From assembly GCF_016446285.1 (NCBI RefSeq), contig NZ_CP054140.1, positions 1,903,501-1,967,500 of the forward strand: a stretch of 64,000 nucleotides of DNA, given 5' to 3'. Within the stretch, counting starts at the first letter, position 1; each line of letters opens with the position of its first letter. A program made the translations under genes and the position numbers. Below the pieces are notes generated by a model. The model made no database searches, was not told the DNA's origin, and was given only the letters and a program-made list of their open reading frames with translations. The stretch comes from Desulfobulbus oligotrophicus (GTDB taxonomy: Bacteria > Desulfobacterota > Desulfobulbia > Desulfobulbales > Desulfobulbaceae). Of this stretch, positions 22,045 through 53,350 are shown piece after piece.

Positions 22045-22080
22045 GCCGGAACACGAGAACCACCTCGTTGGAGAGTGAAT

Positions 22081-22443
22081 ATGGATGAACAAAATCTGTT
22101 GCGTTTTAAAGAGCTGCTTGAAGGGATGAAGGTCGAGATCAGCTCTGATGTGGAACAGACCTTGAATGAGATGACAAGCCAGCTGGGAAATATACCTGAT
22201 CCTACTGATCGTGCCAGTATTGAGTCCGACCGCAATTTTGAATTGCGTATACGAGGGCGGGAGCTCAGACTCATGGATAAGATTGAAGAGGCACTTGCCA
22301 GGATCGATGATGGGACGTACGGGATTTGCGCCAGTTGCGGTTGTGAAATTGCCTTGAAAAGGTTGGAGGCAAGACCGGTGGCCAAGTTTTGCATTGATTG
22401 CAAGTCCCGGCAGGAACAGCAAGAAAAAGAACAGGGAAGATAG
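22081..22443 (+). CDS. dksA: DksA/TraR family zinc-finger transcription factor
   Basis: The 120-residue protein has an N-terminal coiled coil with acidic tip residues (DPTDRASIESDRN) and a four-cysteine zinc finger CASC-x17-CIDC near 85-108. DksA-type proteins enter the RNA polymerase secondary channel and, with ppGpp, retune promoters on starvation. GGAG at 22069-22072 fits ATG 22081 better than GTG 22075. It is shorter than E. coli DksA (151 aa) and may be one of several paralogues. The co-location with rpoZ, the other part of the ppGpp response, is notable. Confidence 0.9.
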   Translation: MDEQNLLRFKELLEGMKVEISSDVEQTLNEMTSQLGNIPDPTDRASIESDRNFELRIRGRELRLMDKIEEALARIDDGTYGICASCGCEIALKRLEARPVAKFCIDCKSRQEQQEKEQGR

Positions 22444-22452
22444 GCCGATTTT

Positions 22453-23451
22453 ATGCCTGAATTACGAAAAGACCCGATCCTCGGTCGATGGATCATTATT
22501 GCAGAAGAGCGAGGAAAACGTCCCACCGACTTCCTGGTAGAAGAGTCCAAGGTCAAGGGGGGCTTTTGTCCCCTCTGTCCCGGGAACGAAAAAACCACTC
22601 CTGATGAGGTGCTGGTGTATGGAAGGCAGTGGGGGGACCCTAACTCTTCAGGGTGGAAACTGCGGGTGGTTCCCAACAAGTATCCGGCCCTGATTATCGA
22701 AGGTAATCTCGACAAACAGGGAGAGGGTCTTTACGACCGCATGAACGGTATCGGCGCCCATGAAGTCATCATCGAAACACCGAATCATGACGATCGTTTT
22801 ACCTACTTGCCGCCGCAGGATATGCTGCTGACGTTTCTGGCTTTTCGCGATCGAATTCTTGATCTGGCGAAAGACAGTCGTTTTAACTATGTTGTGGCGT
22901 TTAAAAACTATGGGAAGGCGGCCGGAGCATCACTTGAGCATTCGCACTCCCAGTTAGTGGCCCTGCCTATTTTACCGCGGATGGTGACTGCTGAACTTGA
23001 GGGCAGTCTTTCCTATTACAAGTACAAGGACAGGTGTATTTTCTGTGATATCATTCGTCAGGAGATGCAACAGAACATTCGCCTGGTCTGTGAAAATGAC
23101 CACTTTGTAACGCTGACTCCTTTTGCGCCACGTTCACCCTTTGAAATGTGGATTCTGCCCAAACGTCACCACTCCTCATTTGTGGCACAGGACGACCGTT
23201 CCCTGATCGCCCTGGCGGAAATTTTTTCTGAAACCCTGCGTCGGCTGGATGCATGTATTCCCCATGCACCCTATAACTTTGTGCTCCATACCCAACCGTT
23301 ACGTTCCGGTTCGCTCGACTATTATCACTGGCATTTTGAAATTGTTCCCAAATTGACGTCCATTGCCGGTTTTGAATGGGGTACCGGATTTTATATTAAT
23401 CCCATGCCACCGGAGGACACCTGCCGATTTCTTCGGGAAGTTACACTGTGA
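22453..23451 (+). CDS. galT: Galactose-1-phosphate uridylyltransferase (GalT, HIT superfamily)
   Basis: The 332-residue protein has the GalT layout: a zinc site (CPLCPGNE near 40-46), RVVPNKYPAL, GAHEVIIETPNHD, the nucleophile motif HSHSQL near 163-168, a second zinc-ligand region (CIFCDII) and YYHWHFEIVPKL near the C-terminus. It exchanges UMP between UDP-glucose and hexose-1-phosphate. No galK/galE lies nearby, so the physiological sugar may differ; some family members act on ADP-glucose. It follows dksA after 9 nt and a response regulator begins 9 nt after it. Confidence 0.9.
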   Translation: MPELRKDPILGRWIIIAEERGKRPTDFLVEESKVKGGFCPLCPGNEKTTPDEVLVYGRQWGDPNSSGWKLRVVPNKYPALIIEGNLDKQGEGLYDRMNGIGAHEVIIETPNHDDRFTYLPPQDMLLTFLAFRDRILDLAKDSRFNYVVAFKNYGKAAGASLEHSHSQLVALPILPRMVTAELEGSLSYYKYKDRCIFCDIIRQEMQQNIRLVCENDHFVTLTPFAPRSPFEMWILPKRHHSSFVAQDDRSLIALAEIFSETLRRLDACIPHAPYNFVLHTQPLRSGSLDYYHWHFEIVPKLTSIAGFEWGTGFYINPMPPEDTCRFLREVTL

Positions 23452-23460
23452 GTGATTACC

Positions 23461-23817
23461 ATGGAAAAGAAACGAATTCTGTTGGTCGATGATGAAGAGA
23501 GTATACAGCTTCTCTACCGTGAGGAGTTTGAAGAGGAGGGATATATTGTAGACTCTGCCTTGAACGGCACTGAGGCACTGGAAAAATTCCGAGCCAATCT
23601 GCCTGATCTGGTGGTGCTGGATATCAATATGCCCGGGATGAACGGGATTGAAGTTCTGCGACAGATGAAAGAGATAAAAGCTGATATGCCCGTTATTCTG
23701 AACTCCGCCTATCAGGAGTACAAACAGGATTTCGGTAGTTGGGCTTCAGAGGCCTATGTTGTCAAATCCGCCAATATGGATGAGTTGAAGGCAACCGTTC
23801 GTAAATATCTCTCCTGA
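23461..23817 (+). CDS. Single-domain response regulator (CheY-like receiver)
   Basis: The 118-residue receiver has the acidic pocket DDEE (10-13), the phospho-acceptor Asp54 in VVLDINMPG, Ser82 in the Thr/Ser position (NSAY) and Lys102. There is no output domain, so it must act by protein interaction or in a phosphorelay. No kinase is adjacent; the hybrid kinase at 46925 is far away. ATG 23461 is chosen; the frame is open from GTG 23452, directly after galT. Confidence 0.88.
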   Translation: MEKKRILLVDDEESIQLLYREEFEEEGYIVDSALNGTEALEKFRANLPDLVVLDINMPGMNGIEVLRQMKEIKADMPVILNSAYQEYKQDFGSWASEAYVVKSANMDELKATVRKYLS

Positions 23818-23884: not shown

Positions 23885-24688
23885 ATGAAAGATATCCAGA
23901 GCCTTCACGATTCACGTCGGATTGATATCCGCAAGGTGGGCGTGAAGTCGGTCACCTATCCGATAATAGTCCTTGATAAGGCCTGCACCACACAGTCTAC
24001 GCTTGCGCGGATGAACATGTATGTGAACCTGCCTCATCATTTCAAGGGGACGCACATGAGTCGTTTTATTGAGATTCTCAATCGATTTCATGGTCGATTC
24101 AATCTGAAGATGTTCCGTTCTATTCTTGAAGAGATGAAAAACAGGCTTGATGCCGAGGCTGCGCATCTGGAAATGGCTTTTCCTTACTTCTGTACAGCTG
24201 GAACAATGCAGTCGGCACCTGGCATGGAACGTTATGATTGCCGGTTGCATGGTTCGCTGGCTTCGGATTTTGATCTTGTCGTGGAGGTTGAAGTACCGGT
24301 TCGTCTTTCCTCGCAGGGATGTCATGAGAACACAGCAGATATAGCGGGTGTCTGGGGTGATGTGACGGTTGCGGTCCGAATGAAGCATTTTCTTTGGATC
24401 GAGGATCTTATTGCCCTGGTGGGTCAGGGGGTGGACTCTCAGATGGCACAGACCAGAACAGTCGAATCCATGTGCCGGTGTGTAAGCGCGGTTTTACAGA
24501 GGACGGACTCGTTTCAATGGTACAAAGTTGTTGTGAAAAATCGAACCACCGGTTATTCAACATTTGCCTCCTATGAGTGGCCGGAACAGACGCTGTCACG
24601 GTTTGATGCCGTCGAAGAGACGTGCTGCCGTGGTGAGTTTTCACCGGCAGGGTTTTTCTGCCCGCATACTCTCCCAATTAACCTCTAA
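23885..24688 (+). CDS. FolE2/MptA-family protein (GTP cyclohydrolase IB-like), signature motif divergent
   Basis: The N-terminal half is clearly FolE2: IRKVGVKSVTYPIIVLD, then VNLPHHFKGTHMSRFIEIL near 47-65, and HLEMAFPYF near 94-102. FolE2 opens GTP for folate or 7-deazaguanine synthesis. At residues 136-165, where the family has the LCPCSK...GAHNQR metal/active-site block, this protein reads VEVPVRLSSQGCHENTADIA. The later block around a conserved Glu (KRPDEK...TE) appears deleted (GQGVDSQMAQTRTVESMCRC). I checked the other frames there and found no hidden motif, so it is not a simple frameshift. It may be an enzyme with a changed site or a non-catalytic paralogue. Confidence 0.75.
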   Translation: MKDIQSLHDSRRIDIRKVGVKSVTYPIIVLDKACTTQSTLARMNMYVNLPHHFKGTHMSRFIEILNRFHGRFNLKMFRSILEEMKNRLDAEAAHLEMAFPYFCTAGTMQSAPGMERYDCRLHGSLASDFDLVVEVEVPVRLSSQGCHENTADIAGVWGDVTVAVRMKHFLWIEDLIALVGQGVDSQMAQTRTVESMCRCVSAVLQRTDSFQWYKVVVKNRTTGYSTFASYEWPEQTLSRFDAVEETCCRGEFSPAGFFCPHTLPINL

Positions 24689-24700
24689 AAGTTGACTGCC

Positions 24701-26773
24701 ATGAGCGAACTTCTTTTTGAAATCGGAACAGAAGAAATTCCAGCGGGGTACATTCAACCAGCCCTTGATACGCTGGCCACTGCCGCGGCCGATAAACTGT
24801 CTGACCTGGGCCTTGCCTTTGGCACCATTCAGACCTTCGGTACCCCCAGAAGATTGACGCTTACGGTGACCGGCCTGCAGTCTCGTCAACCTGATCGTTC
24901 TGTCGAACATCTTGGTCCGTCGAAGAAGGCAGCCGTCGACGCAGAGGGGAGATGGACCCGGGCTGCGGAAGGTTTTGCCCGTTCACATGGTGTTGAACCG
25001 GATCAGTTACAGATCGTTATCACACCCAAGGGTGAGTATTTGCAGGTGGTGGAGGATGTGCAGGGACAGGAGACCGCTGTCTTGTTACCGGCACTGCTGG
25101 AATCGCTCGTTCACGGGTTGGTCTTTCCCAAGTCCATGCGTTGGGCCGATTACAATCTCACCTTTGCCCGGCCTATCCAGTGGCTGCTGGCTCTGCATGA
25201 TGGAGTGGTGTTGCCGATGACCATCGGCGGTGTGACCAGCGGCAATACGACCCGTGGCCATCGGTTCATGGCTCCGCAGGCAGTTCCTGTCACTGGTATT
25301 GAGAACTACCTTCGTACGCTGGCTGAATGCTTTGTGATTGCCGAGCCGGCTGAACGTAAGGCCATGGTTGTGGAAGCGGTTAAAAAGGTTGTTGTCGCTA
25401 CAGCCGGAACCAGTGCACAACCGGTTTTGCATGAGGGATTGCTGGACACAGTGACAAATCTGGTGGAGCTGCCCTGTGCTGTTTGCGGCCGTTTTGATCA
25501 GAAGTTTTTACAGCTGCCCGAAGAAGCCCTGATCACTTCCATGCGTGAGCATCAGAAGTACTTTCCGGTGGTCGATCAGGACGGCAAATTGCTTCCCCTT
25601 TTTGTGGCAGTGAATAACACCAGAGTGACAGACCAGGAACTAGCCACCAGTGGTCATGAACGGGTACTGCGAGCACGTCTTGAAGATGGCCTGTTCTTTT
25701 TTAATGAAGATCGCAAACGACCGCTGATTGATCGGTGTGCAGAGTTACACGGTATTGTTTTCCAGAATAAACTCGGGACAATGCAGGATAAAAGTGAACG
25801 TATCAGCCGCATGGCGGGTTTGCTGGCCGCTCAAATCGCACCGGAGCTCTATGACGATGCGGTGCGCGCCGCTACCTTGGCCAAGGCGGACCTGCTGACT
25901 GCCATGGTTGGAGAGTTTCCTACCTTGCAGGGGATTATGGGACGAGTTTATGCGTTGCATGATGGAGAAAAACCAACAGTTGCCCTGGCAGTTGAAGAGC
26001 ATTATCTACCGCTTCGTGCCGGAGGCAAGGTTCCCCATTCTCTGCTTGGAGCCATTGTCGGTATTGCCGATCGTCTGGACACACTTGCAGGGTATTTTGC
26101 CATTGGTGAGAAGCCGACCGGCAATAAAGATGTCTTTGGTCTGAGAAGGCAGGCGATCGGCCTTATCGGCATTGTGCGTGAACGCAATCTCACCATCTCT
26201 TTACACGAGTTTGTCACCGCCGCTTTACTCGGTTATGGTGATCTTGTCAGTCAGGATGTGCAGATTGTTGATGAGGTGATTTCTTTTATTCAGCATCGTT
26301 TTGAAAATGACCTCATCGCTTCGGATTGTGCGCAGGAGGTGGTTGAGGCGGCAACTGTTGCCGGATTTGATGAACTGACCGACTGTTTAAAGCGCATCGA
26401 TGCGTTAAATGAAATTTACAGACAAGGCAGTTTTCGGGTCCTGGCCGGTTCTTTTAAGCGTATTAACAATATTATCAAGGACAACAGGCAAACAGCCGTT
26501 GATGAGGCGCTGTTGACAGAGCCTGCTGAACGGGCACTGTATGCGGCCCTTGTAACTGCGCATGAAAAAGCATCACCTCTTCTTGAGCAACAGCTGTACT
26601 ATCAGGCCTTGCTGGAAATGCTGATCATAAAGGAGCCTGTTGATCAGTTTTTTGATAGCGTGATGGTGATGGTTGAGGATATTGATGTCCGTCAGAACCG
26701 TTTGAATCTGCTCAGTGCTTTAAGAGCACTGGTGCTCCGGGTGGGGGATATTTCTAGGATGCATGTGGAGTAA
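24701..26773 (+). CDS. glyS: Glycyl-tRNA synthetase beta subunit
   Basis: The 690-residue protein begins LLFEIGTEEIPAGYIQPAL, the hallmark of GlyS. Further conserved blocks are FPKSMRWAD, TRGHRFMAPQ, SMREHQKYFPV, GVFGLRRQA-like DVFGLRRQAIGL and NRLNLLSALR. It works with the alpha subunit (GlyQ) in an alpha2-beta2 enzyme charging tRNA-Gly. ATG 24701 is chosen over TTG 24692. glyQ, usually immediately upstream, is absent; the FolE2-like gene sits there instead. Confidence 0.96.
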   Translation: MSELLFEIGTEEIPAGYIQPALDTLATAAADKLSDLGLAFGTIQTFGTPRRLTLTVTGLQSRQPDRSVEHLGPSKKAAVDAEGRWTRAAEGFARSHGVEPDQLQIVITPKGEYLQVVEDVQGQETAVLLPALLESLVHGLVFPKSMRWADYNLTFARPIQWLLALHDGVVLPMTIGGVTSGNTTRGHRFMAPQAVPVTGIENYLRTLAECFVIAEPAERKAMVVEAVKKVVVATAGTSAQPVLHEGLLDTVTNLVELPCAVCGRFDQKFLQLPEEALITSMREHQKYFPVVDQDGKLLPLFVAVNNTRVTDQELATSGHERVLRARLEDGLFFFNEDRKRPLIDRCAELHGIVFQNKLGTMQDKSERISRMAGLLAAQIAPELYDDAVRAATLAKADLLTAMVGEFPTLQGIMGRVYALHDGEKPTVALAVEEHYLPLRAGGKVPHSLLGAIVGIADRLDTLAGYFAIGEKPTGNKDVFGLRRQAIGLIGIVRERNLTISLHEFVTAALLGYGDLVSQDVQIVDEVISFIQHRFENDLIASDCAQEVVEAATVAGFDELTDCLKRIDALNEIYRQGSFRVLAGSFKRINNIIKDNRQTAVDEALLTEPAERALYAALVTAHEKASPLLEQQLYYQALLEMLIIKEPVDQFFDSVMVMVEDIDVRQNRLNLLSALRALVLRVGDISRMHVE

Positions 26774-52210: not shown

Positions 52211-52320
52211 GGCAATAAAATAACACGTTTGTTCTCATTTGACGACGCCTGTCTGCAGGCTGCCGGCCGGCGGCGGCTAGGAGACCAGCATGACATCTTT
52301 TGGAAGGGAGATCGAGATCT

Positions 52321-52689
52321 ATGGATATTTTTATTCAAACCCACTTTTCCGGAGGTCATCATCTTCGGGCCTACCCGGGGAACTGTGAAAATCCCCATGG
52401 CCATAACTGGCATGTCAAGGTGACGGTACGTGCTGCACAGCTGGATAAACTCGGCATGGGTATTGATTTCAGGCAGTTGAAAAAGGCGGTCAATGCAGTG
52501 GTGGACGAGCTCGACCATCGCGATCTGAACGAACTTCCCGCCTTTCAGGCAGTCAATCCCTCTTCAGAGCACATTGCCATGTATCTTTTTCAGCGTCTGC
52601 AGGAACCGTTGCAGAGTGAACGGTATCGGCTGTACAGTGTTGAAGTACGGGAGACCGAATCCACAGGAGTTATCTACTACGGTGACTGA
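52321..52689 (+). CDS. queD: 6-carboxy-5,6,7,8-tetrahydropterin synthase QueD
   Basis: A 122-residue protein from ATG 52321, preceded by AGGGAGA. It has the zinc histidines (HFSGGHHLR and HGHNWHV), the active-site Cys in GNCENPHGH, DFRQLKKAV, and ELDHRDLNE with the catalytic His. The tail reads RETESTGVIYYGD. It converts dihydroneopterin triphosphate to carboxytetrahydropterin in queuosine synthesis. It overlaps queE by 8 nt. Confidence 0.94.
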   Translation: MDIFIQTHFSGGHHLRAYPGNCENPHGHNWHVKVTVRAAQLDKLGMGIDFRQLKKAVNAVVDELDHRDLNELPAFQAVNPSSEHIAMYLFQRLQEPLQSERYRLYSVEVRETESTGVIYYGD

Positions 52690-53350
52690 GACACTGCGGG
52701 TCTGCGAGCTTTTTTACTCGATCCAGGGTGAGTCCACCCGGGCTGGCCTGCCCTGCCTTTTTATTCGCCTGGCCGGTTGCAATCTCAGGTGTTCATACTG
52801 TGATGCCTCGTACACCTGGCAGGAGGAGGGGCACCTGATGCAGGTGGCCGAACTTCTGGCCTGGGTTGATGCAACTCCCGGAGTCATGGTGGAGGTCACC
52901 GGTGGCGAGCCGATGAGTCAGCCGGGAACTGTGCCGCTGATGCGATCATTGCTCGCAGCGGGACGATCGGTTTTGCTTGAAACCAACGGCAGCCTGTGTC
53001 TTGAAAAGGTGCCCGATGGGGTTGGCATTATTATGGATGTGAAGTGCCCTGGTTCGGGTATGGCGGCCTCCGGCCTGGCGGAAAACATCGGTGTTTTACA
53101 GCAACGACAGCTACGCGGATGCCGGGATGAGGTCAAATTCGTGCTCAGCTCAGCAGATGATTTTCATTGGGCGCGTACATACGTGGAGACACACCGACTG
53201 CCTTCTTTTCTGCCGGTCCTGTTTTCACCGGTACAGTCGCAATTTCCGCCTGCTGCCCTGGCTGAACTGCTGCTTGCCTCCCGGCTTAATGTGCGCCTGC
53301 AGGTACAACTGCACACCCTGCTGTGGCCGGGTCTGACCAGGGGTGTTTGA
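52682..53350 (+). CDS. queE: 7-carboxy-7-deazaguanine synthase QueE (radical SAM)
   Basis: A 222-residue protein from GTG 52682 (the frame is open upstream). It begins CELFYSIQGESTRAG, typical of QueE, with RLAGCNLRCSYCDASYTW carrying the CxxxCxxC radical SAM motif. VTGGEPMSQP follows near residue 80 and the LLETNGS block after it. It converts carboxytetrahydropterin to 7-carboxy-7-deazaguanine. queC and queF are not in the window. The start is set by synteny with queD (8-nt overlap) and lacks a strong ribosome-binding site. Confidence 0.92.
   Translation: MTETLRVCELFYSIQGESTRAGLPCLFIRLAGCNLRCSYCDASYTWQEEGHLMQVAELLAWVDATPGVMVEVTGGEPMSQPGTVPLMRSLLAAGRSVLLETNGSLCLEKVPDGVGIIMDVKCPGSGMAASGLAENIGVLQQRQLRGCRDEVKFVLSSADDFHWARTYVETHRLPSFLPVLFSPVQSQFPPAALAELLLASRLNVRLQVQLHTLLWPGLTRGV

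Follow-up and report, generated by a model that had tools for sequence, protein, structure and literature searches.

A FolE2 homologue of Desulfobulbales without its active-site residues, and a reciprocally decayed partner with which it probably forms a heteromeric GTP cyclohydrolase IB

The genome of Desulfobulbus oligotrophicus encodes two homologues of the GTP cyclohydrolase IB FolE2 (PF02649, NF010200; PDB 3d2o, 5k95, 2r5r and 8g6c), which have decayed in opposite halves of the protein. One of them, termed here protein A, is encoded in the window, that is, the whole 64,000-nucleotide stretch of DNA that was analysed; the other, protein B, lies outside it. It is probable that these reciprocally decayed FolE2 copies work only together, as a hetero-oligomeric GTP cyclohydrolase IB. 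Such a pair would be a variation on an enzyme already known, with no new kind of chemistry.

Protein A is encoded at 23885..24688 (+ strand, like its modules and motifs given below) in a frame of 267 amino acids that begins with ATG and has zero internal stops. It matches the Pfam family of FolE2 (PF02649, GCHY-1) with 138.8 bits, above the cut-off of 25, and an E-value of 3.2e-40; the match joins residues 1-186 to positions 1-199 only of the 260 in the profile. PF02649 is matched alone, and no match to PF01227 (FolE) was found in A. Against the equivalogs, the score falls below the cut-off, both for FolE2 (NF010200, 112 bits, cut-off 215) and for MptA (TIGR00294, 36.3 bits, cut-off 220). The sequence-only reading had recognised FolE2 in the first half of the protein, and this is upheld by the profile match as well as by the conservation of the N-half, in which the KGTHMSRF motif is kept.

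The N-terminal T-fold module (23924..24265, about residues 14-127) is the conserved one, its limits being taken from the AlphaFold2 secondary structure and its conservation from the identity by half. It carries the KGTHMSRF motif (24044..24067, residues 54-61), a type of motif present in all three PDB FolE2 sequences matched; in 5k95, a GCYH-IB structure with 8-oxo-GTP, it takes up positions 56-63 of the sequence index. The C-terminal T-fold module (24266..24595, about residues 128-237) keeps its fold in the model and has lost the active-site residues. LCPCSK and GAHNQR are both absent from the A of the window; the site of the erased segment spans 24299..24355 (residues 139-157) and holds the A-specific residues G155 and W157. 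In an alignment with 66 intact FolE2s, S143 and G145 replace the two Cys, and A154 stands in place of the GAHNQR His. There are also two deletion points. The first, after residue 184 (24434..24439), removes the LKRxDEKxxTE segment with Neisseria Glu201; the second, after residue 222 (24548..24553), removes the Ile-His of ESIHNH with Neisseria His246. By Neisseria numbering, as obtained by aligning to 3d2o, all of Cys147, His159, Glu201, Glu243 and His246, which we take to be the metal and catalytic residues of FolE2, are missing. The C-terminal tail (24596..24685, residues 238-267) varies among A proteins and is mostly of low model confidence, with mean pLDDT values of 47, 45 and 52 in the blocks from residue 241.

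This state is shared by all A proteins read. Among 57 A proteins, that of the window included, KGTHMSR is present in all, while the patterns LCPxSK, GAHNQR and HNHxA occur in none, and every one is a single open frame of 225-286 amino acids. As the motif state is identical across the 57, the defect is due neither to chance nor to sequencing error; a frameshift or assembly error was rejected on the same ground. The earlier observation that the LCPCSK/GAHNQR site is gone without any frameshift applies to all 57. With the metal and catalytic residues missing, A alone is very probably no GTP cyclohydrolase, in line with the earlier suggestion that it may be non-catalytic.

It had also been suggested that A relies on another metal arrangement, supplied by Cys146/His147, or has a new activity. 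Cys146 is outside the six commonest letters of its column in the A alignment, the sixth being found in 5 of 57 proteins, and His147 is kept in 4 of 57. A replacement metal site at this place is therefore unlikely, and the two residues were rejected as alternative ligands. Beyond residue 130, the 57 A proteins share no Cys or His at a frequency of 80% or more. More broadly, it is quite improbable that A has an enzymatic activity of its own or some other metal arrangement. Such an activity would fit the fixation of Gly155 (55/57) and Trp157 (56/57) at the dead positions, as well as the occurrence of A in some genomes where B went undetected; however, it is the ordinary FolE2 N-half that is constrained, which also tells against an unrelated new activity, and the mirror-image decay of B would have no explanation.

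The window genome is a single contig of 3.10 Mb and encodes exactly two PF02649 proteins, A and B. The earlier proposal to check the genome for another folE or folE2 has a positive answer for folE2, as B belongs to FolE2 as well and shows the opposite defect, and a negative one for FolE (PF01227), which was not found in this genome. The picture of A as an isolated oddity is thereby superseded. B is encoded at G000:C1:951471-952220 (- strand; 249 amino acids); the two genes are unlinked, being about 975 kb apart, and the identity between the proteins, as reported with their alignment, is 23%. In B, LCPCSK, GAHNQR and ESIHNH are all in place, IESCVDVM stands at the position of KGTHMSRF, and the protein starts about 12 residues late. 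Its score against NF010200 is 209.4 bits, just under the cut-off of 215. In the B family, GAHNQR is present in 52/52 proteins and KGTHMSR in 0/52; the metal and catalytic residues are found in 52/52 and are combined with KGTHMSRF in one chain in 0/52. B loci, compared in three genomes, also have gene neighbours in common.

The reciprocity was measured by aligning A and B with the 66 intact FolE2s, which come from 40 families and 54 genera of the phylum. Columns at least 95% invariant in the intact proteins served as the base, and a column was counted as lost when kept in less than 90% of a group. Of the 72 invariant columns, A has lost 36, B has lost 18, and none is lost in both. With the N-half taken up to residue 120 of the protein at locus L113, 17 columns of the N-half are kept by A only and 33 of the C-half by B only, 18 are kept by both, and the remainder are three N-half columns kept by B only and one C-half column kept by A only. 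Hence, none of the FolE2 columns invariant at the 95% cut-off is missing from the A/B pair. The difference from FolE2 is that the 66 intact copies keep both halves in one protein, whereas A and B split them. Over nine combinations of cut-offs, 0 to 8 columns of 60 to 92 are lost in both, the highest figure (8/92) coming from the loosest set (90% invariant, 90% kept). The hypergeometric P for such low overlap ranges from 2.2e-7 to 6.5e-4 over the nine sets, although the columns are clustered; when the columns are shifted circularly, which preserves the clustering, 1 to 10 of 59-91 shifts reach an overlap this low. Because of this clustering, the main strength of the result is the identity of the split residues and not the P value.

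At Neisseria Cys147, His159, Glu201, Glu243 and His246, B has the residue in 52/52 proteins each, and A in 5, 0, 1, 0 and 0 of 57. The N-motif residues Lys54, His57 and Arg60 are found in 57/57 A proteins each, and in 2, 0 and 1 of 52 B proteins. Glu216 is common to both groups (56/57 in A, 52/52 in B). These counts bear on a rival explanation, which we consider unlikely, that B alone is the working enzyme with a rewired N-half and that A is a non-catalytic regulator or scaffold binding it. Pseudoenzyme regulators are common, and the C-half metal and catalytic residues are all kept in B. The His57 position is, moreover, under constraint in B, being Cys in 47 of 52 proteins (Cys45 of B); this fixed Cys could mark a rewired site and leaves room for a self-sufficient B. 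Nevertheless, Lys54, Gly55, Met58, Arg60 and Glu63, each kept in 64-66 of the 66 intact proteins, are lost in B with no invariant substitute, the commonest being Val for Met58 in 36/52. The same five residues are kept in 54-57 of 57 A proteins, which is beyond the need of a scaffold.

The two halves also differ in their overall conservation. The mean pairwise identity of the N-half and C-half is 0.611 and 0.604 in the intact proteins (n=66), 0.737 and 0.387 in A (n=57), and 0.498 and 0.687 in B. Between two A proteins, the N-half is always more conserved than the C-half; between two B proteins, this is so in 0.2% of pairs. Each of the two proteins is constrained as FolE2 is in one half and relaxed in the other. 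It could be argued from the fast evolution of its C-half that A is a functionless, decaying relic and that B and other enzymes suffice. This is hardly credible, since A exceeds the intact FolE2s in the conservation of its N-half (a comparison of sets that differ in breadth), the frames are all open and the gene order around A is kept; a relic gene was judged unlikely from the conservation and the gene order.

In trees built from subsets (33/66 intact, 19/57 A, 18/52 B and two proteins of genus g9), A forms one group with SH-aLRT support of 100, and B forms one group with support of 99-100. Both stems are long, and no sister grouping of A with B is resolved in these subset trees.

A was used as the query against 75 genomes drawn from the window's genus, family and order. 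A strong A-like match together with a second, weaker match was found in 62 of them, an A-like match only in eight (G006, G020, G025, G045, G051, G055, G059, G067), the weaker kind only in three (G003, G033, G044), and a single match of another kind in two (G030, G040). The sequences read comprise 57 of the 70 A matches, 52 of the 65 weaker ones and the two others. All 52 weaker matches read are B, including 49/49 read as the second match of the 62 genomes; KGTHMSR and GAHNQR are both present in 2/2 of the other kind. The sequences of both A and B were obtained for 43 genomes, which span 13 families and 26 genera, and since the motif split is the same throughout, the A/B state is old and stable and no accident of one genome. 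Both are present in 6/6 single-contig genomes (G000, G001, G014, G018, G027, G049), and the arrangement prevails among the genomes sampled from the order. Among the named organisms that carry A are Desulfobulbus, Ca. Electrothrix gigas, Desulfocapsa sulfexigens and Desulfofustis, the last three of which are placed in Desulfobulbales. Among the best 80 named loci, 15 are A-type, 63 are intact FolE2 and two are intact with variant motifs.

Outside the order, the usual state is a complete gene. In a sample of 158 genomes of the phylum, PF02649 was matched in 136 and not matched in 22. Seven of the 136 belong to the order of the window and have two or three matches each; of the 129 others, 126 hold a full-length copy (from profile position 1-3 to 259-260). 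The three exceptions are contig-edge fragments in G119 and G148, and an MptA-like protein alone in G205.

FolE (PF01227) was found in 0/107 genomes of the order. In the same 107-genome survey, a strong B-like match, with the first profile positions missing, occurs in 97 genomes and a full gene in three; a second PF02649 match of any sort accompanies the B-like one in 96 of the 97, the exception being G232. No B-type match was found in the remaining seven (G051, G055, G059, G067, G245, G257, G260), which are draft assemblies in 160-350 contigs. That the first four carry A is known from its sequence or from a match over its span; G245, G257 and G260 are labelled as carrying A from match counts and E-values only, among the matches listed. 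In G055, the conserved B flank reaches the contig end where B would begin. In G067, one flank likewise ends at a contig end, and the other (C42, L299) continues over about 3.1 kb in which B is absent; the same holds in G059 for some 900 bases past the flank (C196, L297). As these flanks of the sister genomes G067 and G059 continue without B, B may truly have been lost there with A retained. G055, G059 and G067 each also hold an MptA-like protein. Separately, at G272:C40:65112-65960, a 494-amino-acid frame matches PF02649 with 216.8 bits (profile 3-260), in a genome of the order that also has a B-type match.

Genus g9, of the same family as the window genome, offers the opposite case. Each of its three draft genomes (3/3; 92-95% complete) has a single PF02649 protein, which is a full FolE2 with every motif present. 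The dnaJ-moaC-dksA-galT-regulator block is found in 3/3, and A does not follow within the roughly 4 kb that were read; in G030, the full FolE2 gene is on another contig, beside prfC (label by eye). In a whole-length tree, two g9 proteins group with the intact F_L181 (support 91), apart from A and B. Since g9, without A and B, carries one intact FolE2, the A/B pair and the single intact gene look interchangeable. Near the full FolE2 of g9, at L289 (G030:C53:9000-14781), a TIR-type-like frame was seen by eye.

The fold of A was predicted with AlphaFold2 from an alignment with 34 relatives (14 A-type, 20 intact), giving a pLDDT of 81.3 and a pTM of 0.76; the baseline model, of the intact FolE2 of Geomonas silvestris (L219), has a pLDDT of 86.6. 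The prediction consists of two strand-strand-helix-helix-strand-strand modules (residues 17-125 and 129-232), and KGTHMSRF opens the first helix in the N-module. Foldseek returned 2r5r, 5k95, 3d2o and 8g6c first, with a TM of about 0.7 over about 240 columns. In VIA-align, the GCYH-IB structures scored Z 21-22 (2r5r, Z 21.8 over 218 residues), followed by uricases with Z of about 14-15 and 3-9% identity to A. As the model and its fold matches amount to the complete two-module T-fold of FolE2, the C-module of A is predicted to be still folded even though its active-site residues are gone.

A FolE2 chain is made of two T-fold modules, and in Neisseria FolE2 the active site probably lies between chains, as in uricase. 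In the latter enzyme, Thr57 and Asp58 come from one protomer, and Arg176, Val227 and Gln228 from the other. PMC7792999 describes the uricase ligand as sitting between two protomers and hydrogen bonded to Thr57, Asp58, Arg176, Val227 and Gln228. Urate oxidase, the next best fold match to the A model after FolE2, differs in that it catalyses an unrelated reaction and has four sites, each from two protomers of one kind. A between-chain site carried over from it to FolE2 by analogy would suit A and B well. The N-module of A, with KGTHMSRF, would face the C-module of B, with the metal and catalytic residues Cys132, His144, Glu186 and His231, to give one live site, and the N-module of B with the C-module of A, having lost both sides, would give a dead one. 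Once A/B pairing was set, the dead site would be free to decay from both sides. Reciprocal decay is the trace expected of such a half-of-sites heteromer, because the paired dead site would escape constraint. Were the site formed within a chain, neither A nor B could work, despite the lack of FolE across the order and the queD of the window genome.

Heteromers of an enzyme with a pseudoenzyme are known to arise from gene duplication, one paralogue losing its catalytic residues and working with the other. A and B differ from these in that neither is intact, the damage lying in opposite halves of a single fold. The genes of many heteromers are linked, unlike those of A and B. A literature search over titles and the starts of abstracts, with most subscription papers outside its scope, returned no report of a heteromeric or pseudoenzyme FolE2 pair. 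At the dead site, the stretch from G155 to W157 of A (window 24347-24355) and the Cys for His57 in B perhaps line a re-used pocket. That an order-wide obligate heteromer puts its dead site to new use in this way, for instance as a regulatory pocket from Gly155/Trp157 of A and Cys45 of B, is a tentative idea and rather doubtful.

The queD gene (PTPS family; 52300..52689, + strand) is the sole PTPS-family match of the genome and consumes the product of a GTP cyclohydrolase. It is followed by a queE-like, radical-SAM-like frame at 52574-53350 (by eye). The worry over their supply would be answered by the heteromer, since A and B together keep the whole set of columns invariant at 95%. A further rival, that the A/B heteromer catalyses another reaction or makes a product other than 7,8-dihydroneopterin triphosphate, is very improbable. 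A third PF02649 match, with an MptA-like span, is present in many genomes of the order, so that pterin chemistry may be divided among enzymes; still, the combined A/B site is that of FolE2 without change, and the only PF02649 proteins of the window genome are these two, with no FolE found, and yet it has queD. MptA, the archaeal-type GTP cyclohydrolase, belongs to the same Pfam family as A. In the order, the MptA-like proteins are encoded by a gene separate from that of A, and they combine an RGIHMSR N-motif with a C-half Cys/His site in one chain. RGIHMSR was present in 7/7 MptA-like proteins read from the order and the phylum (L157-L160, L268-L270), along with CPCTQ, HSQRS and ESIH.

If the heteromer is real, it is a clean case of mutual dependence in which the two copies of a single-gene enzyme have each lost the opposite half. 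Annotation would tend to call B a FolE2, or to leave it just under the cut-off, and to call A an odd FolE2; it would then miss that folate and queuosine synthesis in these bacteria depend on both. The pair makes the between-chain FolE2 site directly testable and would offer a natural half-of-sites enzyme. Knowing which chain supplies which residues would be useful, as FolE2 has been named a possible drug target (PMC1971073).

The gene order around A is kept across the 15 named A loci. Directly upstream of A is a single-domain response regulator (23452..23817, + strand), preceded by galT (22453..23451, + strand), and directly downstream is glyS, for the glycyl-tRNA synthetase beta chain (24692..26773, + strand), all three labelled by eye. 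The regulator and galT are each found in 14/15 of these loci, the contig of the fifteenth beginning at A; glyS is likewise found in 14/15, the exception being L187, where about 8 kb downstream of A do not show it. Further upstream, purA, dnaJ, moaC (a molybdopterin gene, labelled by eye) and dksA are present in most of the 15. No folate or queuosine gene linked to A was seen at the A loci. At non-A FolE2 loci, any other gene of this neighbour set occurs in 5/65. Within the conserved gene order, the window encodes at 22075-22443 a DksA-like protein in which a four-Cys finger was recognised by eye.
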